A DNA stretch of 64,000 nucleotides from Bryobacteraceae bacterium (GTDB taxonomy: Bacteria; Acidobacteriota; Terriglobia; Bryobacterales; Bryobacteraceae). Location of the stretch: the NCBI GenBank assembly GCA_019752335.1, contig JAIEMJ010000024.1:1-64000 (forward strand), written 5' to 3'. Below the pieces are notes generated by a model. The model worked only from the letters and a program-made list of their open reading frames with translations. It was not told the DNA's origin and ran no database searches. Position numbers and translations under genes: made by a program. Within the stretch, counting starts at the first letter, position 1. Each line of letters begins with the position of its first letter. This document shows positions 27,947 to 36,292 of the stretch, in pieces.

Positions 27947-28867
27947 ATGACTAGTCCAGTCCATCCGGTCAACCCTTCGGAGGTGGTTGTCCCCGGTACC
28001 GCGGGCCCTCCTGGCCGCGAAGTGCCCTGGGGACCTCTCGCGTGGTTCTTCACGCTGATCGCCATCTGCTATTTCCCGATGCTGCAAGCACTAATCGGGC
28101 AATGGTCGAACGACGAGGACATGGGCCACGGCTTCTTTGTTCCGGTCATCGCCGCGTATATCGCCTGGCAACACCGCGATGAACTCCTCGCCACGCCCCT
28201 TCAACCCAGCTATTGGGGTTTGCCTCTGTTGCTCTGGGGAGCCTTCCAATTGACCATCGGCAACCTGGGCGCCGAATTGTTTCTACAACGTACGGCCATT
28301 ATCTTCACCATCGTTGGCGCGGTATGGCTGGTTTGCGGCACGCGCATCTTGCGCATTGTGGCCTTTCCACTCTTCTTGCTGGTCTTCATGGTGCCGCTGC
28401 CGGCCGTCATCTACAACAAAATCACGTTCCCGCTCCAGATCTTCGCTAGCGTCGTGGCGGAAACCACGCTGAATCTGATTGGCATCCCCGCCCTGCGCGA
28501 GGGGAACGTGCTCGATCTCCCCAACAACAAGCTGTCGGTGATTGAAGCCTGCAGCGGCATTCGCTCTCTGTTGTCGCTCACCTTTCTGTCGTTGGTCTAC
28601 GGCTACTTCTTCGACCGCAAAAGCTGGGTGCGGCCGATCCTGCTCCTCGGAGTGATCCCGATCGCCATCATCGCCAACGCCGCCCGCGTCACCATCACCG
28701 GCATCATCTCAGAGTACGACCGTGAATTAGCCCAAGGCGTCTTTCACACGCTCGAAGGCTGGGTGATCTTCATGATCGCCTTCGTGCTGCTCGGCGTCTT
28801 GCACCAGACCGTCAATTGGATCTACAACATGGTGCAGAAAGCCCGGACTGAACCCACCCTCTCGTAA
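27947..28867 (+). CDS. Exosortase (PEP-CTERM/surface-protein sorting protease)
   Basis: A 306-residue membrane transpeptidase-like protein with about eight membrane segments. The active-site set is complete: Cys202 in 'IEACSGIRSL', Arg247 in 'NAARV' and His267 in 'FHTLEG'. Start 27947 is taken because upstream codons lack the fold and are antisense to the S55 gene. Exosortases cut C-terminal PEP-CTERM-like signals of exported proteins and are usually linked to exopolysaccharide genes. Here only EpsI follows (16 nt); no polysaccharide genes or PEP-CTERM substrates are visible in the window. Confidence 0.93.
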   Translation: MTSPVHPVNPSEVVVPGTAGPPGREVPWGPLAWFFTLIAICYFPMLQALIGQWSNDEDMGHGFFVPVIAAYIAWQHRDELLATPLQPSYWGLPLLLWGAFQLTIGNLGAELFLQRTAIIFTIVGAVWLVCGTRILRIVAFPLFLLVFMVPLPAVIYNKITFPLQIFASVVAETTLNLIGIPALREGNVLDLPNNKLSVIEACSGIRSLLSLTFLSLVYGYFFDRKSWVRPILLLGVIPIAIIANAARVTITGIISEYDRELAQGVFHTLEGWVIFMIAFVLLGVLHQTVNWIYNMVQKARTEPTLS

Positions 28868-28883
28868 AAAGGAAGCCTGACCG

Positions 28884-29537
28884 ATGAAATTCTCCCTTAC
28901 CCGCGCCGGCCAGATTTTGAGTGCTATCCTCATCGGTCAGGCCGCATTGTTCTACGGGCTGTCACGCGCCGAATACGTCCCGCCTAGTCAGCCCTTGACG
29001 AATATGTCGAAGACCCTCGGCTCCTGGAAGATGGTGCAGGAGGGCGTGGTGGAAAAAGAAGTGCAGGACGTCCTCAAGGCGGACGACACCCTCACTCGTG
29101 GCTTTGTTTCGGACAAGTTTCCGGTCTCGGCCGGCCTCTTCATCGCCGCGTTCCGGTCGCAGCGGAGTGGCAAAGCGCCGCATTCACCCAAGAATTGCCT
29201 GCCGGGTAGCGGCTGGACGGAAACCGAACAAGGCTTTGCCTCGCTGAAGCTCGATGGCCGCGCCGATCCGATTGTCGTGAACAAATACGTCGTCCAGAAG
29301 GGCGAATCCACCAGCCTGGTGATCTACTGGTATCAGTCGCGTGACCGCGTCGTGGCCAGCGAGTACAGCGCGAAGGGCTACGTCGTTCTCGACGCGATCC
29401 GCGACAACCGTACGGACTCAGCCCTGGTCCGCGTCATTGTTCCCGTCGTCAACAACAACGTCGACCAAGCCATGGTCGTGGCCACTGACTTCATCCAAGC
29501 CTCCTTCGACAAGATCCGCCGCCAGTTGCCAGCCTAA
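28884..29537 (+). CDS. EpsI family protein, exosortase-associated
   Basis: A 217-residue protein with an N-terminal membrane anchor (~12-30) and an exported body. 'FRSQRSGKAPHSPKNCLPGSGW' begins the conserved EpsI block, with the invariant Cys of 'NCLPGSGW' at ~110; 'VIYWYQSRDR' is a second conserved stretch. EpsI is found fused to, or next to, exosortases and is required with them for exopolysaccharide or protein sorting, with no defined reaction. The 16-nt gap and order with the exosortase indicate one operon. Confidence 0.92.
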   Translation: MKFSLTRAGQILSAILIGQAALFYGLSRAEYVPPSQPLTNMSKTLGSWKMVQEGVVEKEVQDVLKADDTLTRGFVSDKFPVSAGLFIAAFRSQRSGKAPHSPKNCLPGSGWTETEQGFASLKLDGRADPIVVNKYVVQKGESTSLVIYWYQSRDRVVASEYSAKGYVVLDAIRDNRTDSALVRVIVPVVNNNVDQAMVVATDFIQASFDKIRRQLPA

Positions 29538-29603
29538 CCACTCCTCGCCGTAAGGCTTTTTGCCGAGTGGCAAATGTTCCTAATGCAGGCAGTATAGAGG
29601 TGC

Positions 29604-29669
29604 ATGCGCGCACTTCGCTTCTTCGCCTTCACCCTCGCCCTGATCGTACTCATGAAAATCGTGGCCTGA
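29604..29669 (+). CDS. Possible 21-residue hydrophobic peptide
   Basis: ATG at 29604 to TGA at 29667-29669 would give a 21-residue peptide, RALRFFAFTLALIVLMKIVA after the Met, with two basic residues near the start and a single hydrophobic helix, typical of small membrane proteins. A GAGG lies only 3 nt upstream of the ATG, closer than usual, so translation is uncertain. It lies in the intergenic region between EpsI and nrdJ. It could be a chance reading frame. Confidence 0.35.
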   Translation: MRALRFFAFTLALIVLMKIVA

Positions 29670-29715
29670 TCCGATTTCCTGCGAAATCGCCGGTTTTCCC
29701 CGGGTATCGCAAGAC

Positions 29716-29789
29716 TTATCCACAGCCCCCCAAGCTACACTCAAACTGGTTATCCCTGTTTGAGGTTAACACTCCGTGACTTATCCACA
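29716..29789 (+). promoter_or_regulatory. DnaA-box cluster upstream of nrdJ
   Basis: Two perfect DnaA boxes (TTATCCACA) lie at 29716-29724 and 29781-29789, in the same orientation and 65 nt apart, and a near match TTATCCCTG lies midway at 29750-29758. The region 29538-29942 is otherwise without a normal gene. In E. coli DnaA binds upstream of nrdAB and couples dNTP synthesis with replication; the same is inferred here. There is no dnaA, dnaN or gidA gene beside it, so it is not likely to be the chromosome origin. Confidence 0.65.
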
Positions 29790-29832
29790 GAAACGTGCCC
29801 GCAAGTGTATGTACCATCTATAGATAAAGAGC

Positions 29833-29862
29833 TTGACGGACCACTAGATGTTGGGGCATCAT
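29833..29862 (+). promoter_or_regulatory. nrdJ promoter with NrdR-box match in the spacer
   Basis: A -35 TTGACG (29833-29838), an 18-nt spacer and -10 CATCAT (29857-29862) form a plausible promoter starting near 29869. The spacer holds CCACTAGATGTTGGGG (29841-29856), which agrees with the NrdR box consensus acaCwAtATaTwGtgt at every strongly conserved position (C, w, A, A, T, T, w, G). NrdR bound here would block RNA polymerase. A second, weaker half-match (CAAGTGTATG, 29802-29811) is about 42 nt upstream centre to centre. A palindrome ATCTATAGAT (29816-29825) lies between them. Confidence 0.6.
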
Positions 29863-29942
29863 CGTAGGGCTTACCCGATCTGTGTCTTGGGAGTAGACAC
29901 CGGTCAAAACACTCAAAAATAAGAACATTCGAGGAAGAATCA

Positions 29943-32792
29943 ATGGGACAGTTGGCCGTCGCACTGAGTGCGAAGTTAAATACGTTGAAAAAGCCACTAC
30001 AAAAGGAACACCGTAGTGGAATTTCATTCCCCCGCTATTTCACGGCCCGGCTCGAAAACGGTCGGACTCCATACGACGAGATTCTGTGGGAGCGGCGTAC
30101 CGCCTCCATTGGGAACGACAAAGGCGCGGTGATCTTCGAACAGCGCGACGTCGAAATCCCGAAGGACTGGTCGCAGACCGCGACCAACATCGTCGCCAGC
30201 AAATACTTCCACGGCAAGATGGGTTCGCCCGAGCGCGAAACCAGCGTCCGCCAGCTGGTCCACCGTGTTGTCGACACGATCGCCGAGTGGGGCATCGCCG
30301 ACCGCTACTTCAAGACCCGCGAGGACGCCGAGAATTTCCGCTCCGAACTCGCCCACCTGATGCTCACGCAGAAGGCCTGTTTCAACTCTCCCGTCTGGTT
30401 CAACGTCGGCGTCCGCGGCGAGAAGCGCGGCTACGGCTGGTATTGGGACGAGACCTCGCAATCCATCCACAAGTTGCAGCCGGAGGACTCCCGTCCCCAG
30501 TGCTCCGCCTGCTTCATCGTCTCCGTCAAGGACTCCCTCGAAAGCATTCTCGACCTCGCCAAGACCGAGGGCATGCTCTTCAAGTGGGGCTCCGGCACCG
30601 GCTCAAACCTTTCCAGCCTGCGCGAGGAGAACGCGATTCTCTCCGGCGGCGGCCGCGCTTCCGGTCCGCTGAGCTTCATGAAGGGCTTCGACGCCTTTGC
30701 CGGCGTCATCAAGAGCGGCGGCAAGACGCGCCGCGCGGCCAAGATGGTCGTGCTCAACGCCGAGCATCCGGACATCGAAAACTTCATCTGGTGCAAGGCT
30801 AAGGAAGAAAAGAAGGCGCACACCCTCATCGAACAGGGCTACGACTCGTCGCTCGACGGCGAAGCCTACAGCTCCGTCTTCTTCCAGAACGCGAACAACT
30901 CGGTCCGCGCGACCGACGAATTCATGCAAGCCTGCGAGAACAATACGGACTTCTGGACCAAGGCTGTCGGCGTGGGAACGCCCGTGAAGCGCTTCCAGGC
31001 GCGCGACCTGCTGCGCGAAATCGCCGACGCCACCTGGCGCTGCGGCGACCCCGGCATGCAGTTCGATACCACGATCAATACGTGGCACACCTCGAAGAAC
31101 ACGGCCCGCATCAACGCTTCGAATCCCTGCTCCGAGTACATGTTCCTCGATGATTCGGCCTGCAACCTGTCGTCCTTGAACCTGATGAAGTTCCTCTCGC
31201 CGAACGCTGAGTTCGACGTGGAAGCCTTCCGCCACGCCGTCGACACGATGATCGTGGCCCAGGAGATCCTGGTCGACAACGCCTGCTACCCGACGGACCG
31301 CATCGCCCAGAATTCTCACGAGTACCGCCCGCTCGGCCTCGGCTACGCCAACCTGGGCGCCATGCTGATGGCCATGAGCGTGCCTTACGACTCTGATCAG
31401 GGCCGCGATCTTGCCGGCTCCATCACCGCCGTCATGTGCGGCCAGGCCTACCTCAGTTCGGCGCGCATCGCCGATGCCGTCGGCCCCTGCGCCGGCTACG
31501 CGCACAACGAGGAGCCCTTCCTCGACGTCATCCGCATGCACCGCGACTCCTGCAAGCGCATCAATCCGGCCAACATCTCGCCCGAACTCTATAAGGGCGC
31601 CTGGGAGTGCTGGACCAACGCTTATGAGCTCGGCCGCTCGGCCGGCTACCGCAACGCGCAAACCACCGTCATCGCCCCCACCGGCACCATCGGCTTCATG
31701 ATGGATTGCGACACCACCGGCATTGAGCCGGACCTCTCGCTCGTCAAGTACAAGAAGCTGGTCGGCGGCGGCGTCATCAAGATCGTCAACCAGACCGTCC
31801 CGCAAGCCCTGCTCAAGCTCGGCTACCGCGAGGCGCAAGCCGAAGCGATCGTCAACCACATCGACTCCACCGGCACCATCGAAGGCGCCGCCCACATCAA
31901 AGACGAGCATCTCGCCATCTTCGATACCTCCTTCCGCCCGGCCAACGGCAAGCGCTTCATCCATCACATGGGCCATGTGAAGATGATGGCCGCCGTGCAG
32001 CCATTCATCTCCGGCGCCATCTCCAAAACCATCAACATGCCCGAGGAATGTACGGTGGAAGAGATCATGGACGCCTACCTCGAAAGCTGGCGCCTGGGCC
32101 TGAAGGCCGTCGCCATCTATCGCGACAACTCGAAGCTGGCGCAGCCGCTCTCCTCGGGTTCCTCGAAGGGCGAGAAGAAGTCGAACGCGCAACTGGCTGC
32201 CGCCGCGGCGGCTCTGGTCCCGGCGAAGGTGGAAGAGCGCATCGTCTACAAGCCGATCCGCCGCAAGCTCGCCGACGAGCGTGCGTCCATCACGCATAAG
32301 TTCTCCATCGCCGGCCACGAAGGCTACATCACGGTGGGCCTCTACGACGATGGCCAGCCGGGCGAAATCTTTATCTCGATGGCGAAAGAAGGCTCGACGA
32401 TTTCGGGCATCATGGATAGCTTCGCCACTGCGGTATCTTACGGGTTGCAATACGGCGTACCGCTCAAGTTCTACGTGGACAAATTCAGCCACGTGCGCTT
32501 TGAGCCTTCGGGTTGGACCAACAATCCGCAGGTGCAGTACGCGAAGTCGATCATGGACTACATCTTCCGCTGGATGGGCGCGAAGTTCCTCGGGCCGGAG
32601 TATTCGGTGAGCGAAGCGGGCGAAGGCCTCATGCTGAAGCCCACGGAACCCGAACCCCAGCAGAAGCTGGAATTCGAGCCGGTGACGTCAGTGGCTGACT
32701 CGCCAGTCTGCCAGGTGTGTGGTTCCCTGATGACGCGCAATGGTTCGTGCTTCAAGTGCGAGAACTGCGGCGGCACGAGCGGCTGCAGTTAG
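29943..32792 (+). CDS. nrdJ: Vitamin B12-dependent (class II) ribonucleotide reductase
   Basis: A 949-residue enzyme that converts ribonucleotides to deoxyribonucleotides with adenosylcobalamin as radical generator, so it works with or without oxygen. The 'NPCSEYMFLDDSACNLSS' block (thiyl-radical Cys at ~396) and 'GTGSNLSSLR' are canonical, as is 'ATAPTGTIGF' (here IAPTGTIGFMMDCDTTG). The C-terminal tail 'CQVCGSLMTRNG..C..C' is the NrdJ Cys-rich reductant tail. ATG 29943 is preceded by GAGGAAG. No class I or III enzyme occurs in the window, and nrdR is ~3 kb further on the other strand. It is a stand-alone transcript ending in the terminator at 32817. Confidence 0.98.
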   Translation: MGQLAVALSAKLNTLKKPLQKEHRSGISFPRYFTARLENGRTPYDEILWERRTASIGNDKGAVIFEQRDVEIPKDWSQTATNIVASKYFHGKMGSPERETSVRQLVHRVVDTIAEWGIADRYFKTREDAENFRSELAHLMLTQKACFNSPVWFNVGVRGEKRGYGWYWDETSQSIHKLQPEDSRPQCSACFIVSVKDSLESILDLAKTEGMLFKWGSGTGSNLSSLREENAILSGGGRASGPLSFMKGFDAFAGVIKSGGKTRRAAKMVVLNAEHPDIENFIWCKAKEEKKAHTLIEQGYDSSLDGEAYSSVFFQNANNSVRATDEFMQACENNTDFWTKAVGVGTPVKRFQARDLLREIADATWRCGDPGMQFDTTINTWHTSKNTARINASNPCSEYMFLDDSACNLSSLNLMKFLSPNAEFDVEAFRHAVDTMIVAQEILVDNACYPTDRIAQNSHEYRPLGLGYANLGAMLMAMSVPYDSDQGRDLAGSITAVMCGQAYLSSARIADAVGPCAGYAHNEEPFLDVIRMHRDSCKRINPANISPELYKGAWECWTNAYELGRSAGYRNAQTTVIAPTGTIGFMMDCDTTGIEPDLSLVKYKKLVGGGVIKIVNQTVPQALLKLGYREAQAEAIVNHIDSTGTIEGAAHIKDEHLAIFDTSFRPANGKRFIHHMGHVKMMAAVQPFISGAISKTINMPEECTVEEIMDAYLESWRLGLKAVAIYRDNSKLAQPLSSGSSKGEKKSNAQLAAAAAALVPAKVEERIVYKPIRRKLADERASITHKFSIAGHEGYITVGLYDDGQPGEIFISMAKEGSTISGIMDSFATAVSYGLQYGVPLKFYVDKFSHVRFEPSGWTNNPQVQYAKSIMDYIFRWMGAKFLGPEYSVSEAGEGLMLKPTEPEPQQKLEFEPVTSVADSPVCQVCGSLMTRNGSCFKCENCGGTSGCS

Positions 32793-32816
32793 TCCGGACA
32801 GTAGACAGAACAAAGG

Positions 32817-32843
32817 GACCCCGCCGCAAGGCGGGGTCTTTTT
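32817..32843 (+). terminator. Intrinsic terminator of nrdJ
   Basis: A perfect 9-bp GC-rich stem (GACCCCGCC, loop GCAA, GGCGGGGTC) is followed by TTTTT, 25 nt after the nrdJ stop codon. The GNRA-type loop and the U-run make this the most convincing terminator in the window. Confidence 0.92.
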
Positions 32844-32876
32844 GCGTTTGCGCTATGCTAACCATAGGAGATTGGC

Positions 32877-33209
32877 ATGAGCATCCAACTAGCTCTCGAT
32901 GTCTCCGCCGCAACGGCGGCCGGTATGCCCGTCGACGGTGTGCTCCGGGAAGCCCTCAAGCTCTACGACAGAAAACGGCAATCGGCTGTGCGGCGCGTCG
33001 AGTACACCTCCCGGGAGCTGGAAATGGCTTGGACGCGAGAACCCGATCTCCGGTACATCGGCCAATGGGTAGCTCTAGAAGGGTCTCTCGTGGTAGCTAG
33101 CGGCACCGATGGCAAAGCCGTCGCACAGTCGGCACGCGCGCAGGGCATCCCAATTCCCTTTATGTTCTACGTAACCGAACCTGACTCGCACCCGTTCGCC
33201 GGGGGTTGA
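32877..33209 (+). CDS. DUF5678-containing small protein
   Basis: A 110-residue protein. The C-terminal half, 'YIGQWVALEGSLVVASGTDGKAVAQSARAQG', resembles the DUF5678 domain ('y.GkwVAl.gg.vva.g.d..ea...A...g'), a short fold seen in small proteins near toxin-antitoxin genes. The N-terminal half (1-50) is a helical, charged region that could be a DNA- or partner-binding part. It follows the nrdJ terminator by 33 nt and has no obvious partner. Function unknown. Confidence 0.8.
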   Translation: MSIQLALDVSAATAAGMPVDGVLREALKLYDRKRQSAVRRVEYTSRELEMAWTREPDLRYIGQWVALEGSLVVASGTDGKAVAQSARAQGIPIPFMFYVTEPDSHPFAGG

Positions 33210-35815: not shown

Positions 35816-36292
35816 CTAAGACCGCGGTTCGCGGATGGTCTTCTGCCGCATCAGGTTCTTCATCTCGTTGAAGAACGCGTCTTCGTCCTGAAAATCGCGA
35901 TATACCGAGGCGAAGCGGACGTAGGCGATCTTGTCCAGCACCTGCAGGCGCTGCATCAGCAACTCGCCGATCTGGCTGGTGGGAATCTCCCGATCCGGCG
36001 CGTCGTTCAGCAAACCCTCGATCTCGTCCACCAGATTGGCCAGACGAGTCATGGGAATGGGGCGCTTCTCGCACGCCTTGAGGAGGCCGTTGAGCACCTT
36101 CTGCCGGTCAAACTTCTCGCGGCGGCCATCTTTTTTGATCGCCATGTAGGGGATCTCATCAATGCGCTCGTACGTCGTAAAGCGACGGGCGCATTGTAAG
36201 CACTCGCGCCGGCGGCGGATGGATTCCCCCTCCTTGCTTTCGCGCGAGTCGATCACTTTGTCTTGCAGATGGCCGCAAAAGGGGCACAGCAT
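35816..36292 (-). CDS. nrdR: Transcriptional repressor NrdR
   Basis: A 158-residue regulator of ribonucleotide reductase genes. The zinc ribbon reads 'MLCPFCGH' and 'RECLQCARRFTTYERI' (four Cys), and the ATP-cone at ~49-139 contains 'IKKDGRREKFDRQKVLNGL'. It senses ATP/dATP and binds NrdR boxes; a matching box lies in front of nrdJ about 6 kb left (29841-29856). It starts 3 nt downstream of gnd, so the two are probably one transcript. Confidence 0.97.
   Translation of the reverse strand: MLCPFCGHLQDKVIDSRESKEGESIRRRRECLQCARRFTTYERIDEIPYMAIKKDGRREKFDRQKVLNGLLKACEKRPIPMTRLANLVDEIEGLLNDAPDREIPTSQIGELLMQRLQVLDKIAYVRFASVYRDFQDEDAFFNEMKNLMRQKTIREPRS

Follow-up and report, generated by a model that had tools for sequence, protein, structure and literature searches.

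Here we describe the region upstream of nrdJ, the gene for an adenosylcobalamin-dependent (class II) ribonucleotide reductase (RNR), in the first 64,000 nucleotides of contig JAIEMJ010000024.1 of a Bryobacteraceae bacterium (assembly GCA_019752335.1, Acidobacteriota), the whole of this stretch being referred to below as the window. As read from the sequence, the nrdJ promoter is very probably an operator-promoter at which the repressor NrdR, in its dATP-loaded form, would repress nrdJ, and the predicted NrdR site in front of nrdJ is an ordinary one, widely conserved over the family. The original prediction was that nrdJ is regulated by both NrdR and DnaA; the NrdR half of that proposal is strongly supported by tandem boxes found across the family, by the presence of NrdR and by the detection of one RNR, whereas the DnaA half fared poorly. 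What began as a guess from one box therefore becomes a well-supported operator, conserved over an acidobacterial family, in a genome with one detected B12-dependent reductase.

The predicted operator comprises two 16-bp NrdR boxes in tandem on the forward strand: box 1, GTACCATCTATAGATA, at positions 29811-29826, with the diagnostic bases C4, T9, T11 and G13, and box 2, CCACTAGATGTTGGGG, at 29841-29856, with C4, A6, T9, T11 and G13. The boxes are 30 bp apart, start to start and centre to centre, with a gap of 14 bp, which is close to three turns of the helix. A promoter scan placed a -35 element, TTGACG (29833-29838, + strand), within the gap that separates the boxes and a -10 element, CATCAT (29857-29862, +), at a spacer of 18 bp and immediately 3' of box 2; box 1 stands just 5' of the -35 element, box 2 fills the -35/-10 spacer, and transcription of nrdJ would start near 29869. 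A further conserved element of the GTAA type (GCAA in this genome; 29801-29804, +) is found 6 bp 5' of box 1. Box 2 is the NrdR-box match that had been predicted inside the promoter spacer, and its position was borne out; the prediction of a single box was real but incomplete, as box 1, exactly 30 bp 5' of it, had been missed. Scans with a single-box consensus were discarded as uninformative, the matches being no more numerous than in shuffled sequence (4 in the window at up to 3 mismatches to a loose consensus, against a shuffle mean of 6.0), and the significance of box 2 thus comes from the second box and from the relatives and not from the loose consensus alone. The weights used for scoring NrdR boxes were our own, derived from a general NrdR consensus.

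The arrangement is shared with the nrdRJ operator of Streptomyces coelicolor and the nrdHIEF operator of Escherichia coli, in which a pair of 16-bp boxes, spaced by about three turns, likewise lies over an RNR promoter, has a conserved GC pair at each of positions 4 and 13 and is served by an NrdR with a Zn-ribbon and an ATP-cone (PMC9110341, PMC12051234). Here C4 and G13 are conserved in each box, the boxes overlap the predicted promoter of an RNR gene, nrdJ lying downstream, and the genome encodes an NrdR with both domains; the spacing of whole turns is also found, at its lower edge, since a gap of 15-16 bp is usual and spacers of 14-17 bp are classed as short (PMC12051234). Inversion of the conserved GC pairs reportedly cuts binding by S. 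coelicolor NrdR some 50-60 fold (PMC9110341), and the pairs required there, positions 4 and 13 by our alignment, are present in both boxes. Unlike those operators, the one described here has a 14-bp gap as opposed to 15-16 bp, has right halves (GATA in box 1 and GGGG in box 2) that are nearly fixed over the family, and belongs to a genome in which nrdR lies outside the nrdJ operon.

The product of nrdJ (29943-32792, +; 949 amino acids) scored above the curated cut-offs of NF005122 (1439.9 bits, cut-off 859) and TIGR02504 (571.5 bits, cut-off 399.95), and contains the domains PF02867, PF08471 and TSCPD. The repressor gene, which had been predicted about 6 kb away, was indeed found at 35816-36292 on the reverse strand, approximately 3 kb past the end of nrdJ; its product matched TIGR00244 with 191.2 bits (cut-off 124.65), PF22811 and PF03477. 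The genome (7.2 Mb in 55 contigs, rated 97% complete) gave a single match to the RNR barrel family PF02867 and none to the class III family NRDD, and the claim of a single B12-dependent reductase is therefore supported, with the proviso that these searches did not extend to the class I small subunit. A domain scan found no ATP-cone (PF03477) in NrdJ, and the sole ATP-cone match in the genome is NrdR's own; because of this, overall restraint of the dNTP supply by dATP probably acts mainly through NrdR. Genomes with NrdR and a single RNR operon have already been described (PMC9110341).

In published work NrdR forms, with dATP and ATP, a tetramer that recognizes a pair of boxes spaced by some three turns and that inhibits the expression of RNR (PMC9110341, PMC12051234). 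From the studies of the S. coelicolor, E. coli, Listeria and Streptococcus repressors we infer binding, repression and the role of dATP at the nrdJ promoter: at high dATP a tetramer of NrdR carrying dATP and ATP would bind both boxes and exclude RNA polymerase from nrdJ, and as dATP falls it would release the operator and nrdJ would be made. This explanation of the operator has no need of DnaA boxes.

The distribution of the tandem boxes was followed in family genomes chosen by nrdJ alone (37 genomes, of which 35 were readable; G019 was dropped for want of an nrdJ start and G023 for want of nrdJ). A 30-bp pair around TTG[AC][CT] with at least 7 of the 9 diagnostic bases was found in 32 of the 35, the three failures being G025, where the match was poor, and G008 and G007, where the pair was spaced by 31 bp. 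The same arrangement was present in 89 of 92 family genomes overall, 83 of them with all 9 diagnostic bases. When the promoter was left out of the scan and any spacing from 17 to 60 bp was allowed, the best pair fell at 30 bp in 71 of 91 genomes, one short upstream region having been dropped, as compared with 12 of 455 shuffles. Outside the family (24 genomes, less G039 and G058) the best pair showed a spacing of 30 bp in 8 of 22 genomes and of 31 bp in 7. In some loci of the family, and in many outside it, the match to nrdJ begins after the first residue (at the latest at residue 26), so that part of what was counted there as upstream is coding. Across 87 aligned promoters TTGAC was nearly invariant (the promoters were themselves picked around TTG[AC][CT]), the -10 element had A at position 2 and T at position 6 in 97% each, and the two A positions of the GTAA-type element were A in 93% and 72%.

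A sequence model of the promoter, R1, was built from 30 family genomes with both the present genome (G000) and its congener (G001) excluded. In G000, at E values up to 10, it gave one match, the nrdJ promoter at 29799-29864 (E 7.8e-14), and in G001 also one (E 9.0e-16). The G000 scan scored 150 of 470 first-look candidates, so that a weak second target could be missed, and within that scope no R1 match was found at nrdR that would point to autoregulation. With stricter filters and E up to 1, R1 matched 189 of 237 family genomes, or 159 of 207 once the 30 training genomes are subtracted. That a match precedes nrdJ was shown for the fetched loci: 66 of 70 include nrdJ, in three the promoter stands without it (L239, L241, L243) and one runs off the contig end (L244). 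These four were dropped, followed by repeat copies of genomes already included, and 65 of the 66 had their best pair at a spacing of 30 bp, in a scan limited to spacings of 27-35 bp, with a bonus for TTGAC, on loci that came from R1 matches and included 9 training genomes. One locus, L226, had another best pair (32 bp) in one scan, the same genome giving 30 bp in another.

Second copies of the nrdJ-type tandem-box promoter were seen away from nrdJ in three genomes (L280:1418-1484 in G119, L281:2690-2749 in G074 and L282:9474-9545 in G103), each 85-89% identical to the nrdJ promoter of its own genome over 63-107 bp. The G119 copy lies 5' of a stretch with a phage-type integrase and tRNA-Val, the G074 copy about 150 bp before tRNA-Ser, and the G103 copy near three tRNA genes on the opposite strand.

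Several observations weigh against an NrdR operator, or at least call for caution. Of the 92 family genomes, 57 were fetched through a promoter model that already contained the 30-bp spacing, and that sample is therefore biased; R1 gave no match in 48 of 237 family genomes, and those of its matches with E near 1 may be due to chance. In their outer halves, box 1 (GATA) and box 2 (GGGG) differ from the ACAC...GTGT consensus. Such asymmetry, together with the extra conserved GTAA-type element, would suit a plain sigma-70 promoter under some other regulator; however, both boxes have the diagnostic bases and stand in tandem, about three turns apart, before the one RNR gene detected, and NrdR was found in 58 of 61 genomes, which makes a regulator other than NrdR very improbable. 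The gap of 14 bp is also one below the usual 15-16 bp, and binding at this length is weaker for three of the four NrdRs for which values are tabulated: 14-bp and best short spacers gave 169 and 45 nM with E. coli NrdR, 154 and 21 nM with S. coelicolor, 699 and 41 nM with Streptococcus pneumoniae, and 2 and 1 nM with Listeria, the E. coli protein binding at 91 nM at its own gap of 15 bp (PMC12051234, Table 5). For those NrdRs a 14-bp gap is thus workable but not the optimum. The reporter text of the same study gives repression at 15-17 bp and derepression at 13 bp and shorter, and makes no statement for 14 bp (PMC12051234). A gap nearly fixed at this length would mean either that the NrdRs of the family are tuned to 14 bp or that repression is set weaker. 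A matching change in the NrdR linker was considered and set aside, as no difference in length was found between Zn-ribbon and ATP-cone among 30 NrdRs (25 of them from the family; order-mates with 31-bp spacing were left out): the distance from the start of the protein to ASVY was 128 residues in 28 and 127 in two, whose starts differ by one residue.

Turning to the second half of the prediction, two exact copies of the consensus DnaA 9-mer, TTATCCACA, are found near the promoter on the forward strand, at 29716-29724 and 29781-29789. They are 65 bp apart, approximately 150 and 90 bp 5' of the putative transcription start, and are the only exact copies in the window. The near match that had been predicted alongside them is unremarkable: at up to 2 mismatches the interval 29538-29942 contains, in addition, only TGAGGTTAA (29761, -) and TATAGATAA (29819, -, inside NrdR box 1), and simple arithmetic assuming equal base frequencies predicts about one such match.

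Dual control, in which DnaA would also bind at 29716 and 29781 in this genus and raise or lower nrdJ with the replication cycle, as for E. coli nrdAB, is on balance doubtful, and there is evidence on both sides. The pairing of the exact boxes is itself unusual, no other such pair being this close among the 14 exact boxes in the 7.2-Mb genome (about 0.002 expected by arithmetic), and in 20000 dinucleotide shuffles of the 420 bp 5' of nrdJ one box arose in 66 and two in none; the DnaA protein of G000 also has a strong domain IV match. On the other hand, exact boxes over the whole genome are little above a reversed control pattern (14 as opposed to 9 in G000, 6 as opposed to 7 in G001), and there is no clear double box, the form present at 15 of 16 DnaA-bound regions in E. 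coli (PMC11317965). In a search for partners 2-3 bp away the best was 5/9 at 29716 and 3/9 at both 29781 and the G001 box; roughly one such search in three would yield a 5/9 partner by chance, and partners as weak as 4-6 of 9 are found among nine E. coli double-box pairs (PMC11317965).

Conservation of the two boxes in the congener is divided. The box at 29716 is kept in G001 at 10 of 10 bases, including the G that follows, despite only 60.6% identity (275/454) at the fourfold sites of nrdJ, and no exact-box loci other than those at nrdJ are homologous between the two genomes; the box at 29781 is not kept (3/10). As the gene 5' of nrdJ differs in G001 (no EpsI or exosortase match in G001:C17:30001-67409), the retained box goes with nrdJ. 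Its retention is a modest sign of selection, based on two species and on an alignment which the box itself helped. No further species of the genus was among the nrdJ search results or the R1 rows listed (28 genomes without a match being unlisted), and a contig scan for further members found nothing closer than 77%; conservation of this box consequently rests on two species. Elsewhere in the family an exact DnaA box 5' of nrdJ was found in 0 of 90 genomes. Hence, of the expectation that the predicted boxes would be conserved in relatives, the part concerning NrdR stood, while exact DnaA boxes are absent from these genomes beyond the genus although the promoter is conserved, which largely refutes their role there. 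As a count for the whole family, two genomes with exact boxes out of 92 is not unusual, 6 of 100 shuffle sets reaching as many. The relaxed box TTWTNCACA did occur in 6 of the other 90, a number reached in 1 of 100 shuffles (mean 1.45), but among 1000 permuted motifs 46 perform equally well.

It is rather probable that the DnaA boxes are incidental to nrdJ, being either a titration site or a fortuitous cluster in the vicinity of the origin, or else the result of one box having been duplicated as the 13-bp direct repeat GACTTATCCACAG. On this contig dnaA occupies approximately 90.9-92.2 kb, roughly 62 kb from nrdJ, and the cumulative GC skew reaches its minimum near 105 kb; the two boxes share 13 bases, and it is the second box that is not conserved. 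The preservation of one box beside nrdJ in the congener, where the upstream gene is different, argues in the opposite direction, as does the fact that nrdJ is not always close to dnaA. Nearness to the origin as a general feature of nrdJ was in fact rejected, the distance in the five of 12 genomes with both genes on one contig being about 175 kb (G008), 254 kb (G060), 0.57 Mb (G047), 1.17 Mb (G040) and 1.98 Mb (G009).

Dual control by NrdR and DnaA is thus put forward as an unproven possibility for this genus, to which the DnaA boxes are confined as far as seen. A little more doubtful again is its fullest form, a genus-specific promoter with two inputs in which an old, dATP-sensing NrdR operator and recently gained DnaA boxes sensing the initiation of replication would together govern one detected B12-dependent RNR that lacks a dATP switch of its own. 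If the DnaA part were true, a promoter that senses nucleotides would, within a single genus, have acquired replication control as well. The idea of such dual control is not new, since NrdR and DnaA both bind the nrdAB promoter of E. coli (PMC12176259) and DnaA control of RNR genes has also been proposed in Bacillus subtilis and Caulobacter crescentus (PMC8203912). The E. coli nrdAB promoter is alike in that it carries NrdR boxes and has DnaA boxes of the consensus type upstream (PMC12176259, PMC8203912, PMC11317965); it differs in that the enzyme there is of class Ia, and not class II as here, and that its DnaA boxes form a double box spaced by 3 bp, whereas those described here are 65 bp apart, are seen in one genus and have one member kept in the congener. 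Among the literature matches listed for NrdR, Acidobacteria and nrdJ, the sole paper on the phylum concerned Chloracidobacterium (nrdJ, not NrdR), and among those listed for DnaA box, RNR and NrdR there was no title on this family, which may be covered by the survey figures of PMC9110341 and PMC12051234.

Of the remaining features of the locus, a ribosome-binding site, GAGGAAG, was read from the sequence at 29931-29937 (+). An Rfam scan of 28800-33200 gave no match to a cobalamin riboswitch, its three matches all lying far under the gathering scores. Immediately 5' of nrdJ, at 27962-29537, is an exosortase and EpsI-like pair which was not found near nrdJ of the congener; the EpsI-like gene is followed at 29604-29669 by an open reading frame for a 21-residue hydrophobic peptide, MRALRFFAFTLALIVLMKIVA, at which the G001 alignment is mostly gap. 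Finally, nrdJ genes 59-74% identical to the present one were found in records titled Bordetella parapertussis (L099), Arcobacter (L088) and Comamonas (L157), titles which look to be wrong.

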